Source: a virus
IMG/VR virus record: IMGVR_UViG_3300032116_001266
Location: 1-24,498 of that record
Direction: 5' to 3' (one strand)
Length of the DNA stretch: 24,498 bases
Made by a program: the position numbers and the translations under genes. Of this stretch, positions 10,383-18,612 are shown piece after piece (position 1 is the first letter of the stretch; each line of letters opens with the position of its first letter). Under the pieces are notes generated by a model, which worked only from the letters and a program-made list of their open reading frames with translations, ran no database searches and was not told the DNA's origin.

Positions 10383-11017
10383 GTGACAGGAGTCCTCACT
10401 TGGCCAGAACGGTAAGCATCCTGACGGTTGAGGCCGTCACCCAGACGCTTGAGTTGCGCGATACCCTCTTGGTACTTCGCCTCGTAGTTGTTGATCATGT
10501 CCCCCTCGCCTTTCAAGAAGGTATAGGCTTCGCGGAGACATCCGTACAGCAAGACCTGCTCAAAGTTGTCCCCCACCCAAGTATTACCTGCACTTACGAT
10601 GGACTGTGGGTAGTAGTAATAGTGCAGTTCTACCTGATAGTTCGCATCAGGAGTGGGGCCTAGCAGCATACTGCCGTCATCCCAGATGGCGTAGTACTTC
10701 GGCTTCCCCTGCGTGCCCGGAGGGGGGTACGCCGCACGGATGAAGTTCACGTCCTTGTTGAGCAGGTACTCGTACTCGTTGGTCACCGGGGCGATCACCG
10801 CAATGGAGAACGTGGACAGCCAGTCATTCGGAAGGGACAAGTACTTCTGCCCCGACGTCATGACACCTGTCACGTTCTTACGGAGCGCAGGGATCTGAAC
10901 GGAGTTGTAGATCCGCTCTTCTGCGATCTGCACGAAGTTCGGGATATTGGCTACAAAGGCTTGCTCTGTAGATTCGCAATAGTCCTGAATCGCGGTTGAA
11001 AGTTGGGTGTAGTTCAT
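10379..11017 (-). CDS. Head-tail adaptor-like protein (SU10-type adaptor family)
   Basis: The 212-residue protein starts MNYTQLSTAIQDYCESTEQ and shows FVANIPNFVQIAEERIYNSVQIP (about 20-42), RKNVTGVMTSGQKYLSLPNDW, YYAIWDDGSMLLGPTPDANY and VELHYYYYPQSIV. This is the pattern of the connector proteins known as phage adaptor or SU10-adaptor, which join the portal to the tail in short-tailed phages. The C-terminal helix (YEAKYQEGIAQLKRLGDGL) fits the family. The ATG at 11017 overlaps the upstream TAA by one base (TAATG); an earlier TTG exists two codons upstream but is less likely. Identification is from motif recognition. Confidence 0.82.
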   Translation of the reverse strand: MNYTQLSTAIQDYCESTEQAFVANIPNFVQIAEERIYNSVQIPALRKNVTGVMTSGQKYLSLPNDWLSTFSIAVIAPVTNEYEYLLNKDVNFIRAAYPPPGTQGKPKYYAIWDDGSMLLGPTPDANYQVELHYYYYPQSIVSAGNTWVGDNFEQVLLYGCLREAYTFLKGEGDMINNYEAKYQEGIAQLKRLGDGLNRQDAYRSGQVRTPVT

Positions 11018-11199
11018 TACCAACCAGCAGAGAGTTTACCGCGCCTGTTGAGGTTGATCTGCGAGACGAACTTCTTGCCCTTCGTGGCTGCACCAGCACC
11101 ACGCATGGTGGAATGCGTGATACCGACGTTGATGTCCTTTTCAGGGTAGCCGTTCTGGCCCGTGGACTCTTTGTTCGGCTTGATCTTGTCGTGCTTCAT
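11017..11199 (-). CDS. Basic microprotein, RGAGAATKGKKF type
   Basis: The 60-residue protein starts MKHDKIKPNKESTGQNGYPE and contains MRGAGAATKGKKFVSQINLN. It is Lys/Arg/Gly-rich with no membrane segment. The RGAGAATKG.KF motif is familiar from tiny proteins in environmental phages and resembles the C-terminal KGKT.G.FV ending of two neighbours (13168-12776 and 13353-13168). A GAGAGG site precedes the chosen ATG at 11199, which lies 1 nt after the upstream stop; the further GTG at 11214 is rejected because it lacks this site. A virion-internal or DNA-binding role is inferred from charge and location. Confidence 0.73.
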   Translation of the reverse strand: MKHDKIKPNKESTGQNGYPEKDINVGITHSTMRGAGAATKGKKFVSQINLNRRGKLSAGW

Positions 11200-11749: not shown

Positions 11750-12469
11750 TCACCTCAGAAACGACTGCCGGGGAACGAACCGGACCGGAGCCTTCTCGCG
11801 GTCCTCGTCCGAAGCCAGTTGCCAAGCCTCGTCGTACTGCGCCTTGAGCATCTGCATCCGCACTTCAGCGCCGGGGATCTTCATCGACAGGTAATACGCC
11901 AGCCCCGCCACCATGCAGGGGAGGAACCGGAAGGGGATGTCCTGCCCGTTCGCACCCGTGCCGGGATCGAACATCCTACGAAGTCGCGTATAGACAAGTG
12001 TGTAGGTTGTACTATTGTCGGGTTTCGGCCACACCGTAACCTGCGGATATACCACAGCGTCGTCCGCACCTGTTGCGCCCGTGCGACGATTGATCCAGAT
12101 CTGGATCGGCCTGCCCGTCGCGTTCTTGTTCGGGATAGACAGGTAGGTGCTGGACGAGATGCGCGAGATGTTGATGTCGATCTGGTTCTGGCCCGTGCCC
12201 GTACGGATGACGTGATCCAAGAGGTCCACCGTATCGACCGGGAGGTCGTAGGTGGCGAGTCCCGAAGTCAGAACCTGCGTCCCGCTGTCGAGCGTCCAGA
12301 GGTTGATGCCTCGGTTTGACCAGTCCATCAGGAGCAACGCAAGACTACGCCGTGCCGTACGGAAGTCATACCCAGTACGCATCTCAGCCCCGCACCGCTC
12401 GAAAGCCTCTTCGATGATGGTGCTGAGGTCGAGGTTGAACTCGGTCGTGGCTGTAGTCTTGTCAACCAT
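11750..12469 (-). CDS. Head-tail connector/tail-adaptor-like protein
   Basis: The 239-residue protein starts MVDKTTATTEFNLDLSTIIE and includes EEAFERCGAEMRTGYDFRTARRSLALLLMDWSNRGINLW in its first 60 residues, then VLTSGLATYDLPVDTVDLLDHVI. A helical N-terminus followed by LP.DTVD and a C-terminal FRFLPCMVAGLAYYLSMK is the arrangement I know from a conserved tail-adaptor protein family in uncultured podovirus-like phages. It is probably functionally analogous to gp4-like connectors. The ATG at 12469 overlaps the upstream TAA by one base. Two connector-type genes (this and 11017-10379) separated by basic microproteins would suit a portal-adaptor-nozzle tail machine. Confidence 0.78.
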   Translation of the reverse strand: MVDKTTATTEFNLDLSTIIEEAFERCGAEMRTGYDFRTARRSLALLLMDWSNRGINLWTLDSGTQVLTSGLATYDLPVDTVDLLDHVIRTGTGQNQIDINISRISSSTYLSIPNKNATGRPIQIWINRRTGATGADDAVVYPQVTVWPKPDNSTTYTLVYTRLRRMFDPGTGANGQDIPFRFLPCMVAGLAYYLSMKIPGAEVRMQMLKAQYDEAWQLASDEDREKAPVRFVPRQSFLR

Positions 12470-12648
12470 TACTTCTTACCCCTTGCCCGCTTGGTGTAGT
12501 TCCCGGCCTCGTTGACCTTGGACTCTCCACCCGCCTTGAACGTCTTGATGGGCCTGCCCGTACCGATGACAGGCTGAGAGTCCCCACGCCGCTTGGCACG
12601 AGGGACCTTGCTCGGAGCGATTGCACCCATGCCACGCGAGGGTTTCAT
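12469..12648 (-). CDS. Basic microprotein, 59 residues (RGMGAIAPSK type)
   Basis: This short frame runs from the ATG at 12648 to TAA at 12469. It encodes MKPSRGMGAIAPSKVPRAKR, then RGDSQPVIGTGRPIKTFKAG and GESKVNEAGNYTKRARGKK. The RGMGAI.PSK start and the SKVNEAGNYTK block both recur in tiny proteins of environmental phages, which supports a real gene. It overlaps the upstream gene as ATGA and the next gene as TAATG, so it is coupled at both ends. Very basic, Gly/Lys/Arg-rich, no hydrophobic core. DNA binding in the capsid or an assembly role is an inference. Confidence 0.78.
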   Translation of the reverse strand: MKPSRGMGAIAPSKVPRAKRRGDSQPVIGTGRPIKTFKAGGESKVNEAGNYTKRARGKK

Positions 12649-12779
12649 GCTGCCTTCTCCTCGACCTTCTGCGGTTCGGTCACGCGGACTCGGGCACCCC
12701 GGACGTACTTGAACTCGTCCTTCTTAGGTGCCTCCGTCCGCTTCTTGTTCTCGTCATACTGACGAGCCAAGTTCTTCAT
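12645..12779 (-). CDS. Charged microprotein, 44 residues
   Basis: A short frame starting at ATG 12779 encodes MKNLARQYDENKKRTEAPKK, then DEFKYVRGARVRVTEPQKVE and EKAA before TGA at 12645. It overlaps both neighbours as ATGA, and an AAGG-like site lies in the end of the upstream gene. It is almost entirely polar and mixed-charge, with one amphipathic segment (FKYVRGARVRV), and is likely disordered alone. No family is recognised. Its evidence is the coupled architecture and absence of any other frame in the interval. Confidence 0.68.
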   Translation of the reverse strand: MKNLARQYDENKKRTEAPKKDEFKYVRGARVRVTEPQKVEEKAA

Positions 12780-13168
12780 ACAAAGCGACCCTTGGTCTTG
12801 CCCTTGGTCTCGCAACCGCCACCACGGACAGAGCCGCCCTTGGCGAACTTCTTAGCGGGTGTCATGCGGTTCTGCCGCTCTTTCTCCATCTGCTGCTTGT
12901 TTTTTACAGGAGGACGAGCGGGAGGACGAGCGGGAGGACGAGCGGGAGGACGAGCGGGAGTCTTTTCCGCATCCCTAACAGGCAGGGGTAGGTTGCCCGG
13001 AGGTGCAAGATCGTCCATCGGATTATAGTTGGGATCTTCTTCAGGACGAAGTTTACGCTTAGGAGTAGAAGGAATAGTTCCACCTCCAGCAAACTTCTTC
13101 ATGCGAGGCATACCGCCTTTCATCTTGGGCTTGAACGAGTTTGGCCCAAAACTCTTGACCCGCTTCAT
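12776..13168 (-). CDS. Basic Pro-rich protein with PARPP tandem repeat and conserved C-terminal tag
   Basis: The 130-residue protein starts MKRVKSFGPNSFKPKMKGGM. The centre contains a four-fold ARPP repeat (about residues 71-87) encoded by a perfect 12-bp DNA repeat. The end is KKFAKGGSVRGGGCETKGKT followed by KGRFV, nearly the same as the end of the preceding gene. It has very high Lys/Arg/Pro, a single Cys in the tag and no hydrophobic segment, so it should be disordered and bind acidic partners such as DNA. TAATG overlap upstream and ATGA overlap downstream show coupling. Family not recognised beyond the shared tag; virion-internal role inferred. Confidence 0.75.
   Translation of the reverse strand: MKRVKSFGPNSFKPKMKGGMPRMKKFAGGGTIPSTPKRKLRPEEDPNYNPMDDLAPPGNLPLPVRDAEKTPARPPARPPARPPARPPVKNKQQMEKERQNRMTPAKKFAKGGSVRGGGCETKGKTKGRFV
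12909..12960. repeat. Perfect 12-bp tandem repeat, 4.3 copies
   Basis: The plus strand reads GGAGGACGAGCG four times in succession (12909-12920, 12921-12932, 12933-12944, 12945-12956) and then GGAG. The unit is four codons long, so gain or loss of copies would keep the reading frame of the basic protein at 13168-12776 and simply change the number of Ala-Arg-Pro-Pro units. No interruptions are visible among the four copies. Confidence 0.95.
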
Positions 13169-13353
13169 TAGACAAACTTCCCGCGAGTCTTACCCTTGCT
13201 CTCGATGCCGCCGCCACGGGCGTAGCAAGCACCGCCGCTGCGCATCTTCTTGACGCCCGCCTCGGCCTTTTCGTGCTTGATCATCGACTTGGGAGCGCCC
13301 TTCTTCTTCATGAAGGCCAACTCCTTCTTCATCATCGCCTTGGATTCTTTCAT
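13168..13353 (-). CDS. Basic microprotein with GGG.ESKGKTRGKFV C-terminal tag
   Basis: The 61-residue protein starts MKESKAMMKKELAFMKKKGA, continues PKSMIKHEKAEAGVKK and ends GGACYARGGGIESKGKTRGK plus FV. The N-terminal half is a predicted Lys-rich helix with many Met; the C-terminal half is Gly-rich with one Cys. The tag is nearly identical to the end of the next gene downstream, indicating paralogy or shared selection. I chose the ATG at 13353 (AGGAG 9 nt upstream) over a GTG two codons earlier. Its TAA overlaps the next ATG. Function unknown; DNA condensation or capsid interaction is inferred from charge. Confidence 0.77.
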   Translation of the reverse strand: MKESKAMMKKELAFMKKKGAPKSMIKHEKAEAGVKKMRSGGACYARGGGIESKGKTRGKFV

Positions 13354-13355
13354 GG

Positions 13356-13499
13356 TCACTTACTCCTGAATTTGCGGCCTTTGTCGGCCTTGAGATATTC
13401 CTTGCCTACTTTCTGGGGGACCCCGACACGCTTGGCGGCTTTCGGATTGTTCGCCACCATCGCCATCAGGTTGTGCTGCGCTTTGGACTTACTTGGCAC
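13356..13499 (-). CDS. Basic microprotein, 47 residues (MPSKSKAQH type), GTG start
   Basis: A short frame from GTG at 13499 to TGA at 13356 encodes MPSKSKAQHNLMAMVANNPK, then AAKRVGVPQKVGKEYLKADK and GRKFRSK. The SKAQH...A.NP..AK.VGVPQ.VGKE...ADKGRKF pattern is recurrent in tiny environmental-phage proteins, so the GTG start is preferred over internal ATGs that would remove the conserved SKAQH. GGAAGG lies just before it, and it overlaps the end of the membrane-protein gene by 11 nt. A small helical, DNA-binding-like fold is plausible; function unknown. Confidence 0.78.
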   Translation of the reverse strand: MPSKSKAQHNLMAMVANNPKAAKRVGVPQKVGKEYLKADKGRKFRSK

Positions 13500-13681: not shown

Positions 13682-13936
13682 TCAGCAGTTCCATGCACGA
13701 AGCGACTTGTTGATCCGGCTGTTCGGGTCGTTGGCGGTCTTTGCACTCGTCAATTTCCGCTTCATCCCTTTCATCCGGGCACAGAATGAGTCCCTACGCG
13801 AGCCTCCTTCTGGCTGGGGTCGCTTCAACCCCGGCTTGCCGGGATTGGCCTTGTTGTAAGACGCCCTGCCTTTGGCGTTCAAGCCTCCAGCAGGGTTCTT
13901 TCCTTCGGCACGCTGCCACGCGGGTGACTTAGCCAT
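13682..13936 (-). CDS. Basic Cys-containing small protein (DUF6321-like)
   Basis: The 84-residue protein starts MAKSPAWQRAEGKNPAGGLN and continues AKGRASYNKANPG, then RRDSFCARMKGMKRKLTSAK, ending NKSLRAWNC. The SPAWQR.EGKNP.GGLN.KGR.SYN and R.SFCARM.GMK..L...........SLR.W.C motifs match what I know as the phage protein family DUF6321. It is highly basic with a terminal Cys and no catalytic motif. It overlaps the upstream gene by 8 nt. Its function in the family is not established; it may bind DNA or protect it. Confidence 0.82.
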   Translation of the reverse strand: MAKSPAWQRAEGKNPAGGLNAKGRASYNKANPGKPGLKRPQPEGGSRRDSFCARMKGMKRKLTSAKTANDPNSRINKSLRAWNC

Positions 13937-14835: not shown

Positions 14836-15747
14836 TCAAGTCGAACCCGGCGAACCGAAGATCGCAAGAGGATCCGACCAACCGAACGAGTAACGCTCAC
14901 GAGCCTTGTAGCGGACATTGCCCGTGTCGAAATCACCGTCCATCGAGGTCGCCAGCGGGGTACGCACGAAGTGCTTCAGGCCATTCGGCACGTCCGTCAT
15001 CAGGAACCAAGCGTTGGTGTCCGTGAGGAAGTGGTTGACCTTGTAGCCCTCGGGGATCGAACCCATCGCCTTCAGCGCGTTGATGTCGTTATCGGTCGTG
15101 CCGACACGGAGTTCCGTATCGAGCAGCCGCTTGGCGACAAACATGAGCGCCGGGGGGACGATGAGTTTCCGAGGCTTCGCAGCGATGAGCAGGCCACGCT
15201 CGTCGGTCCAACCAGCGATCTGGATGACAGCCGACTCAAGCGAGGTCTCGTTCAGGTCAGCAGCCACCGCAGGACGGTTGCTGTTGGTACCGCCCGAAAC
15301 GAGCGGATGCGCGGTCGAGATGAGCGGCACGCCGTCGCCACCCGTGTAAGCGGGCGAGAAAGCGTTGTTCAGGGTCGACGCAGCCTTGACCTGCTTCGTG
15401 TACGCCATCGCACGAGCCTGCGCCTTGGTGTAGCGCTTGCTCAGAGAGTCGTAGAGGTTGTCCTCGACGGCCTCTTCCGTGATGGCGAAACCAAGAGCGA
15501 TGGTCTCGTGGTTGTAACGAGCGGTCCACGCTTCCTGCGCATTGTCGTACGCAATAGCCTGACCTTCGTTCTTCACCGGGGCGGCGCTGAAGCCGGAGAG
15601 TTTCGTCTCCTCTTCAAAGGAACGCTCGGAGGTCTCGGTCTCGTAGATCTCCTTGTGTTCCTCGCCATAGCGACTGTACTCCATGCCGAACAGAGCGTTC
15701 AGGCCGGGGAGCAGTTCCTTCAGAAGTTGTGCGCGTGAAATAGCCAT
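14836..15747 (-). CDS. Major capsid protein
   Basis: The 303-residue protein starts MAISRAQLLKELLPGLNALF. Motifs are FEEETKLSGFSAAPVKNEG (about 44-62), YNHETIALGFAITEEAVEDN (about 78-97), STAHPLVSGGTN, TDERGLLIAAKPRKLIVPP, LRVGTTDNDINALKAMGSIPEGY, NHFLTDTNAWFLMTDVPNGLK and RYKARERYSFGWSDPLAIFGS. This is the recognised HK97-like/Mu-gpT-type major head subunit pattern in uncultured podovirus-like phages. The product self-assembles into the icosahedral shell around the scaffold-like protein at 18037. AGGAG lies about 9 nt before the ATG, and translation ends at two consecutive in-frame TGA codons. A terminator-like hairpin follows, in keeping with the high expression expected of a capsid gene. 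Confidence 0.92.
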   Translation of the reverse strand: MAISRAQLLKELLPGLNALFGMEYSRYGEEHKEIYETETSERSFEEETKLSGFSAAPVKNEGQAIAYDNAQEAWTARYNHETIALGFAITEEAVEDNLYDSLSKRYTKAQARAMAYTKQVKAASTLNNAFSPAYTGGDGVPLISTAHPLVSGGTNSNRPAVAADLNETSLESAVIQIAGWTDERGLLIAAKPRKLIVPPALMFVAKRLLDTELRVGTTDNDINALKAMGSIPEGYKVNHFLTDTNAWFLMTDVPNGLKHFVRTPLATSMDGDFDTGNVRYKARERYSFGWSDPLAIFGSPGST

Positions 15748-16629: not shown

Positions 16630-17079
16630 TTATTTGCCTTTGCCGAATTCGACGGTCGAGCGCCTTTCCTTGAAAAGCGGCATACGCTCGTCGTTCAGCC
16701 TCATGTAGTTGCTGTCCACGGACTCGATCTGCGACCGATTCTGCTTGGCGTAGTATTCGTCACGCTGCTTCATCAGTTCAGCCGGAGCCTTGCACAGCAA
16801 CAGCCCGCCGACTTCCACATTCCCCTTGAACTTGGAATTGGGGTCGGCCTGATACATAAGTTCAGGATGGTCTTCGGCCTTCACAGGCTCCCAACCCTCA
16901 CGGAACTTACCGGACGCATTCGTGGGGTCCAACTGCCCCATCATGGAGGTCCTGATCCATCTGAACACCCAACCGTCCTGCGGCGTGGGTTCAGGCAGAG
17001 TCTGGGGCGGTGCCCAAGACTGCTTACGCTGCGTTGATTCTCGGTTTTCAAGTTCACGAGCCAAACGATTCTCAGCCAT
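16630..17079 (-). CDS. Conserved-type protein of the capsid block, function unknown
   Basis: The 149-residue protein starts MAENRLARELENRESTQRKQ and contains DGWVFRWIRTSMMGQLDP, FREGWEPVKAEDHPEL and GGLLLCKAPAELMKQRDEYYAKQ. The compact WVFRWIR...G..D..N....REGWEPV...DHPE pattern is familiar from a protein found between portal and capsid genes in environmental phages. The ATG at 17079 has GGAG 7 nt upstream and overlaps the scaffold-like gene by 8 nt; the farther ATG at 17121 is rejected as deep in that gene. Its small size and position suggest an assembly or accessory role, not established. Confidence 0.78.
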   Translation of the reverse strand: MAENRLARELENRESTQRKQSWAPPQTLPEPTPQDGWVFRWIRTSMMGQLDPTNASGKFREGWEPVKAEDHPELMYQADPNSKFKGNVEVGGLLLCKAPAELMKQRDEYYAKQNRSQIESVDSNYMRLNDERMPLFKERRSTVEFGKGK

Positions 17080-18037
17080 TGAAATTCTCCAGTTTGAAAA
17101 GTTCTTTTGCGTACTGTTCATTGCTCAAGCCAAGTCTCTTGGCAAGTGCAACTTGAGTCGGAGTCAGGCGGACCTGACGCGGCGCGGATCCCCGCGTTAC
17201 CGGAGCCACTACATTGGCTGGCTTTGTGCGTGGAGAAGGCTTCTCGTCCCTTTCCATCGTTTGCTCGGCATTACCCTCAAAATTTTCAGGGAATCGCCTA
17301 CGCATCGTCCTGTCGATCTCTTTGTAGTAATCGTCACTACGCGGATCGATTCCAGATCGGACCAGTTTTTCGTGCAGGCCGAGTGCGAGGGCGGTCATCT
17401 CCTCGTCTTCACCAAACCACGAGTTCTTTGCCTTCCAAGCCTCTGCTTTTGGGTCAGCGGCTGGAGCGGCCTGTGGCGGTGCCGTCACCTGTTGAGACTG
17501 TTGTACTCCTTCTTCCGACTCCTGTAAAGAGGGTCGGAAGCGTTCGTAATCCTTCAATTTCAGTTTGGCGTCGGTCAGGGCTTCCTGAGCCTCCGCGATC
17601 TTTTCCCCGTCACCCGACTCGTAAGCCTGCTTCAGGCGCTCCTTGGCCGTGGCAAGTTCCCCGGTAGCCGCCTTGGTGACCTCTTGGATGTAGGCCCTTT
17701 CGCCCACCCCAAGGCGCTGCTTGAGACGGCGGTTCTCTTCAAACTGGGTCTGGGCAAATCGGAGGGCCTCGTCCTTCTCGCGGGCAACGCGCTCCTTTTC
17801 ACGGCGCTCGTCGTGCCAGACCTTCTTCATCTGGCCGAGGCGCTTCTTGACCTTCTCGGAGTACTCCTCAAGGTCATCCTTATCCAGTTCGTCCACGATC
17901 TCCTTCGGGAGCGGCTTACGGCCACGGTCCTCTGGCGGAGTATCGTCTTCGATCTTGATCTCCAATTCAGGCGTATCTGCCTGATTCTTATTGGTATTTT
18001 CGATCTCGTCCGGGAACTTAAACTCTTCCTGCTGCAT
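17072..18037 (-). CDS. Scaffolding-like protein
   Basis: The 321-residue protein starts MQQEEFKFPDEIENTNKNQA. It is very charged: an acidic N-terminus (LEIKIEDDTPPED), a long coiled-coil region (about 55-170, with KRLGQMKKVWHDERREKERV and RLKQAYESGDGEKIAEAQEAL), a Gln/Pro linker, then SWFGEDEEMTALALGLHEKL and a basic C-terminus (APRQVRLTPTQVALAKRLGL). An extended coiled coil with a terminal basic capsid-binding helix, located between portal and capsid genes, is the usual profile of an internal scaffold. AGGAG lies 6-7 nt before the ATG. There is no protease motif. The assignment is by analogy, not by a sequence family. Confidence 0.74.
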   Translation of the reverse strand: MQQEEFKFPDEIENTNKNQADTPELEIKIEDDTPPEDRGRKPLPKEIVDELDKDDLEEYSEKVKKRLGQMKKVWHDERREKERVAREKDEALRFAQTQFEENRRLKQRLGVGERAYIQEVTKAATGELATAKERLKQAYESGDGEKIAEAQEALTDAKLKLKDYERFRPSLQESEEGVQQSQQVTAPPQAAPAADPKAEAWKAKNSWFGEDEEMTALALGLHEKLVRSGIDPRSDDYYKEIDRTMRRRFPENFEGNAEQTMERDEKPSPRTKPANVVAPVTRGSAPRQVRLTPTQVALAKRLGLSNEQYAKELFKLENFNG

Positions 18038-18047
18038 GGTCTACTCC

Positions 18048-18425
18048 TTATGCGCGGCGGATGCCACGGGGGTCATCAACAACGGCTTCAACCCTGTCAT
18101 CGGTGATGATGCGGAACTCCCGACCGTGGATGACCACGCGGGTACCTGCGTACGGACGGGTAAGGACAAAATCGCCTTCCTTACACCACGGTCCGGTCGG
18201 AAAGCGGGACTCATCCTTGTAGCAGAGGTTTCCCATCTTGACGACGAACAGGACGACAGTCGTCTGCTCCTCGACCTTCTTGGTGTCCTCAGCCTTGATG
18301 AGGCCGCTTTCGTACTCTTCCTCGACATGAGGTACCGCACACAAGATGTGGTACCCCTTCGGCTCTGGCAGGAGTTTGGCTTTCGCCGCCTCTGCCTGCG
18401 TCTTCTCTACATCGATATTACTCAT
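18048..18425 (-). CDS. GroES-like co-chaperonin
   Basis: The 125-residue protein starts MSNIDVEKTQAEAAKAKLLP. The core is PEPKGYHILCAVPHVEEEYESG, then VVLFVVKMGNLCYKDESRFPTGPWCKEGDFVLTRPYAGT in two segments, and VVIHGREFRIITDDRVEAVV. This fits the Cpn10/GroES beta-barrel with a GDFV..R.Y.GT strand pair and a hydrophobic mobile-loop region around LIKAEDTKK. It probably helps the host chaperonin fold the capsid or portal proteins made from the adjacent genes. The ATG at 18425 is 8 nt inside the preceding gene and has GGAG 7 nt before it; a TTG at 18449 is rejected for lack of a site. It is somewhat longer than bacterial GroES because of the N-terminal extension. Confidence 0.85.
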   Translation of the reverse strand: MSNIDVEKTQAEAAKAKLLPEPKGYHILCAVPHVEEEYESGLIKAEDTKKVEEQTTVVLFVVKMGNLCYKDESRFPTGPWCKEGDFVLTRPYAGTRVVIHGREFRIITDDRVEAVVDDPRGIRRA

Positions 18426-18612
18426 CTTCGCGCTCCAAGCGTTTTGCAAGGTCTTTCACATGGTTCTTTGCGAGTTCAAGACCCTGTAACGCCCCGCAAA
18501 GACGTTTGTACTCGGCCTCGTCCAACTTGCCTTGGACCAAAGCCTCGATGATCAACGTGCGCTCTTCCTCGTACTTGCTGACCAAGTACTCCAGAGCGTT
18601 GGAATAACTCAT
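18418..18612 (-). CDS. Small helical protein coupled to the portal gene
   Basis: The 64-residue protein starts MSYSNALEYLVSKYEEERTL and continues IIEALVQGKLDEAEYKRLCG and ALQGLELAKNHVKDLAKRLE. It is a predicted helical hairpin or short coiled coil. It overlaps the portal stop as ATGA and the GroES-like start by 8 nt, so is produced with both. I recognise the EYKRLCG.LQGL pattern from similar-sized proteins beside portal genes, function not known. A portal-assembly helper or internal head protein is possible. Confidence 0.78.
   Translation of the reverse strand: MSYSNALEYLVSKYEEERTLIIEALVQGKLDEAEYKRLCGALQGLELAKNHVKDLAKRLEREDE

Follow-up and report, generated by a model that had tools for sequence, protein, structure and literature searches.

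Internal proteins of bacteriophage T4 are packaged in the head and then injected, and the cargo-loading peptide of encapsulins fits into a pocket that the shell protein has on its inner side. The T4 internal proteins IPI–III are small, unrelated proteins from variable loci that share a conserved terminal capsid targeting sequence, the CTS (PMC3012670, PMC12373910); this sequence is N-terminal, about 10 residues long and cut off by the head protease (PMC7697877). Encapsulin cargo-loading peptides are short and C-terminal, and are found on diverse cargo encoded beside an HK97-type shell protein (PMC7355545).

The peptide described here, which we call the tag, lies in a 24.5-kb phage record from IMG/VR (the window, that is, the whole 24,498-nucleotide stretch analysed) and has features of both systems. 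Like the CTS, it is a single conserved peptide that one phage carries on several proteins without other homology; unlike the N-terminal CTS of about 10 residues, it is C-terminal and 16–25 residues long. Like the encapsulin peptides, to which we liken it by arrangement and not by peptide sequence, it is short, C-terminal and present on several types of putative cargo, and the interval that encodes it adjoins an HK97-type shell gene, here that of a phage capsid; unlike them, it is glycine-rich and strongly basic, and the shell is a phage capsid with a portal and scaffold. We place the tag in neither family, because it sits at the opposite terminus from the CTS and because its receptor is as yet a candidate. 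No protease family was recognised among the searched head-gene products of the window; the capsid protein weakly matches ‘head and protease’ PHROGs.

The window carries a podovirus-type head operon on its minus strand, in the order terminase, portal, GroES-like co-chaperonin, scaffold-position protein, major capsid protein, cement-position protein, a cluster of microproteins and two SU10-type adaptors; the terminase, portal, scaffold and cement positions were assigned via homology to annotated relatives, with 17,072–18,037 as the scaffold candidate. Matches to Mu-gpT as well as to Phage_capsid_4 lie behind the HK97-type shell assignment. Judged by the portal, the nearest cultured relatives, at about 40% identity, are Pelagibacter phages HTVC027P and HTVC023P, phage 023Pt_psg01, DSL-LC04, Planktothrix phage Pag-Yong1 (which agrees with Synechococcus phage MinM2 in sequence length and in its genes) and Roseobacter phage CRP-901. 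The GroES-like gene (18,048–18,449) lies between the portal and scaffold positions, the same place that it takes in cultured relatives.

Table 1. Features of the tag interval and its borders in the window.
Feature	Position	Strand	Remarks
Major capsid protein	14836..15747	-	Phage_capsid_4, E=7.7e-13; PHROG major head protein; one border of the tag interval
DUF6321 protein (PF19846)	13682..13936	-	67.9 bits against a curated cut-off of 28.5; untagged in the window
PSKSKAQ protein	13356..13499	-	Untagged in the window; elsewhere fused to a 61-aa-type body plus tag
61-aa tagged protein (MKESKAMMKKE..)	13168..13353	-	Length with ATG as the start (63 aa with a GTG upstream); stop and 130-aa start codon overlap (TAATG)
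Tag core RGGGIESKGKTRGKFV of the 61-aa protein	13171..13218	-	C-terminus of the protein
130-aa tagged protein, ending RGGGCETKGKTKGRFV	12776..13168	-	Swappable body is residues 2–105, about 12854–13165
25-residue tag KKFAKGGSVRGGGCETKGKTKGRFV of the 130-aa protein	12779..12853	-	16-residue core at 12779–12826; DNA identity with L002 resumes at its first codon; from profile and consensus
Small gene, untagged	12645..12779	-	ATG overlaps stop of the 130-aa gene (ATGA); start inside tag DNA
59-aa untagged neighbour	12469..12648	-	
SU10-type adaptor	11750..12469	-	PF24175, E=1.5e-7, above the family cut-off; position conserved; other border of the tag interval
RGAGAATKGKKFV in the 60-aa protein (11017–11199)	11065..11103	-	Related second motif class, not the tag

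The original prediction held that the 61- and 130-residue proteins have almost identical endings although the rest differs, and both parts were borne out: the common 16-residue ending is RGGG[IC]E[ST]KGKT[RK]G[KR]FV, a degenerate DNA pattern for the tag and the stop has exactly two matches in the window and none in 100 dinucleotide shuffles, and the two bodies fall into separate blastp clusters. The 60-residue protein had been named as a third relative. It does contain the related RGAGAATKGKKFV, but 15 more residues (SQINLNRRGKLSAGW) follow, so the stretch is not terminal, and the protein does not carry the same tag: it has no match of at least 8 bits on the tag profile, against at least 25 bits for every accepted tag. 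Its RGAGAATKGKKFV instead resembles a second C-terminal motif class (RGxGAATKGxxF/Y) of related phages. In the fuller form RG[MATG]G[AK]A[TS][KR]G.x[FY], this class occurs in other proteins of L240, L249, L254, L274, L278, L284, L289, L297 and L304; in the window it is internal to the 60-residue protein. The body of the 130-residue protein has a tandem ARPP repeat (ARPPARPPARPPARPP) at 12,908–12,961.

Beyond the window, the tag DNA pattern matched at least 120 stretches of viral contigs, and in bacterial and archaeal genomes totalling 257 Gb only six contigs, at least four of which (L202, L203, L205 and L206) have phage neighbours of the head operon. Across 203 distinct tails, the consensus reads R[AG][DG]G[CI][AE]x[RK]GKT[RK]G[RK][MF][VI]-stop, with a KGGxV..SSAS stretch before it, the residues fixed in the search pattern being conserved there by construction. 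Because the training contigs had been selected by the tag, we tested the tag profile on independently picked loci, relatives by the adaptor; it gave 184 matches of at least 25 bits, none between 8 and 25 bits, and none in shuffled proteins. These matches were exactly C-terminal in 124 cases, extended by a short tail, usually [KR]M..GG.C, in 56, and further in for 4, which are extra tandem copies; all tags apart from these four end the protein or lie within about 10 residues of its end. Two tandem copies near the C-terminus, with a [KR]M..GG linker, occur in L032/L033 (a 295-aa ORF), L079 (2,064–2,612) and L072 (1,589–1,870).

We found no description of the tag, which appears to be undescribed and to resemble known targeting peptides in its working. 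None of the searched family libraries describes it, and its strings had no biological match in a literature search beyond whose reach lay most subscription journals and preprints. PDB sequence searches with the tag profile, the capsid protein and the adaptor gave no matches. Likewise, tblastn with the 61- and 130-residue proteins and the bare tag against phage records returned none, probably owing to the low-complexity filter, and is not evidence of absence.

That the conserved tag sits on unrelated bodies, as originally proposed, is clear from several directions. The 323 distinct tagged IMG/VR proteins with a start, one to five tagged genes per phage, fall into 125 body clusters, a figure better taken to mean ‘dozens to about a hundred’ in view of the permissive blastp cut-off, the mechanically picked start codons and the short, biased sequences. 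Locus L002 matches the window with 99.2% and 99.6% DNA identity on the two flanks, yet the entire body of its counterpart of the 130-residue gene is replaced by 514 unrelated bases, with identity stopping just past the start codon and returning within the opening codon of the 25-residue tag. Two recognisable bodies exist with and without the tag: DUF6321 proteins in 17 distinct tagged versus 93 untagged forms, and PSKSKAQ proteins in 41 versus 45, some of the latter ‘untagged’ entries having near-tags missed by the strict expression. Together with the tagged bodies at adaptor-selected loci (below), these results exclude a tag restricted to full-length homologues of one family. We regard the tag as almost certainly a genuine modular peptide signal.

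The bodies are small, with a median of 126 aa including the tag (longest member per cluster). Searches of 144 tagged proteins against Pfam, PHROGs and NCBIfam recognised DUF6321 and the ‘virion structural protein’ PHROGs of PSKSKAQ type, and beyond these only a scatter of weak matches. The untagged 47-residue PSKSKAQ protein of the window is 67% identical to PHIKZ165.1 of phiKZ, and the domain also occurs in jumbo-phage proteins annotated as structural, such as those of 121Q, which the window protein resembles. An F..AF body box, as a strict pattern, was present in one tagged protein only. Membrane insertion was rejected as a general feature; a clearly hydrophobic segment is present in only 11 of 124 bodies.

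The location of the tags is strikingly constant. In 19 whole records (39–66 kb) every tag falls within a single cluster on one strand, with one to five per phage, and a reversed-pattern control had no matches. The cluster lies between the capsid gene and the adaptor in every locus that covers both borders, with an occasional tag just beyond the adaptor (L221), and every adaptor-selected locus spanning DUF6321 to the adaptor (52/52) has one to four tags. Within this fixed interval the bodies turn over much faster than their surroundings: locus pairs, which are not independent of each other, have 31% of tagged bodies in common at an adaptor identity of at least 97%, 8% at 90–97% and 5% below, whereas their flanking genes remain at 71–93% on average. 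Tag presence tracks the capsid clade: 15 of the 17 loci whose capsid is at least 81% identical to that of the window have the tag, as do 8 of 40 at 72–81% and 0 of 47 below 69%, a pattern that plain common descent would also give. Part of the 72–81% group has tag variants missed by the expression, for example GDGACMKGHTKGRMV in two L246 proteins and GDGCCMKGKTKGRMV in L285.

The head-operon location, the interchangeable bodies and the disordered basic tail make a docking or packaging signal, as first suggested, the best-supported reading of the tag. In AlphaFold models of two different bodies, both of low confidence overall (mean pLDDT 64–67), the tag is predicted to be disordered (pLDDT about 35–49), as would be expected of a linear docking motif; a Foldseek search with the low-confidence model of the PSKSKAQ/61-aa-type protein gave no match below E=1. 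The anatomy matches that of the T4 internal proteins (PMC3012670, PMC12373910, PMC7697877) and of encapsulin cargo (PMC7355545), which leads us to propose a C-terminal procapsid loading signal. The tag would be a modular, unstructured, basic docking peptide that brings small late proteins, in a set that varies, to one common viral receptor during head assembly; this receptor is most likely the major capsid protein or the scaffold on the inner face of the procapsid, and the tagged proteins would be packaged and perhaps delivered into the host along with the DNA. Recombination would exchange the bodies but leave three elements in place: start codon, tag and the ribosome-binding site within the tag. 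We put the probability that the tag loads variable small proteins into the virion head at roughly 50%; the receptor, the loading into virions, the ejection and any counter-defence role of the bodies are what we infer.

The far border of the interval is the SU10-type adaptor gene and the second motif class lies beside the two adaptor genes of the window, so that the tag could dock its proteins to the portal and adaptor neck, or to the tail, and not to the head interior. We think this unlikely, since the interval begins just as regularly at the capsid gene and the number of tagged genes varies from one to five, unlike fixed neck components. Nor does a role in the infected cell outside the virion, with the tag bound to nucleic acid or to a host factor, for instance a chaperone or the ribosome, seem at all likely to us: a tag net charge of mostly +4 to +6 and mostly basic bodies (85%) would suit such binding, and a GroES-like protein is encoded in the head operon, but this role would leave unexplained why whole records hold tags solely in the head-gene interval and why the uncharged D, G, T and C-terminal V are exactly conserved.

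Conservation could also lie in the DNA, as a recombination handle combined with translational coupling, the peptide having no role of its own. Terminal tags do overlap or abut the next start codon, which lies at –5 to +25 of the stop in 230 of 233 cases and overlaps in 151, and the codon for Gly(–4) is GGA or GGG in about 60% of them, against 3–14% for the other two fixed glycines; from this excess and the adjoining starts, we take the last codons of the tag to be a Shine–Dalgarno-like site of the next gene. Such dual coding is found in the window at 12,776–12,781 and 13,166–13,170, and also in loci L002–L233. The body swap in L002 stops at the tag, and some phages have DNA-identical tags. Against this reading, 119 tag peptides are encoded by 301 DNA versions with third bases varying freely; among unlike tags of one locus, 55% of the third bases of fixed residues differ. 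Moreover, 65 subterminal tags provide an internal control: they keep the residues and have GGC or GGT in 65 of 65, so the peptide is conserved where the role in DNA is absent. The codon evidence thus indicates that selection acts on the tag peptide; a purely DNA-level cassette is rejected by the free third bases and the subterminal tags, which lack this codon bias, and we consider this reading very unlikely. The least probable reading, in which all tagged proteins descend as paralogues from one old family and kept the tail while their bodies diverged past recognition, would suit the speed at which short, compositionally biased bodies lose detectable similarity and the chaining of 142 of 320 bodies in the largest cluster, but is rejected on the one-step swap between 99%-identical phages and the existence of DUF6321 and PSKSKAQ bodies without the tag as well as with it.

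The procapsid-loading reading can be extended into a fuller picture, in which a large clade of aquatic podoviruses would use the tag peptide to ship small, rapidly exchanged, injected effectors (for example, anti-defence proteins) into the capsid; the tag DNA would at the same time signal translation of the following cargo gene, so that cassettes could be swapped in one step. We advance this combination tentatively and think it less likely than not. If the tag does load virions, its sequence would be a handle on hundreds of cargo proteins that otherwise escape annotation, and that are candidate injected effectors, in uncultured phages of high abundance; the T4 targeting peptide led to internal proteins in much the same way. 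Under the same condition, the tag would also be a peptide ready for use in loading podovirus capsids with foreign proteins.

The tag is also present in an isolated phage. UMO75986.1, of Planktothrix phage Pag-Yong1 and Synechococcus phage MinM2, is encoded in the same interval, annotated as a hypothetical protein and ends in GGMIGRDGCAKRGRTKGRFI; compared with the tags of the window, GRT replaces GKT, and the Pag-Yong1/MinM2 stretch examined has one tagged gene.
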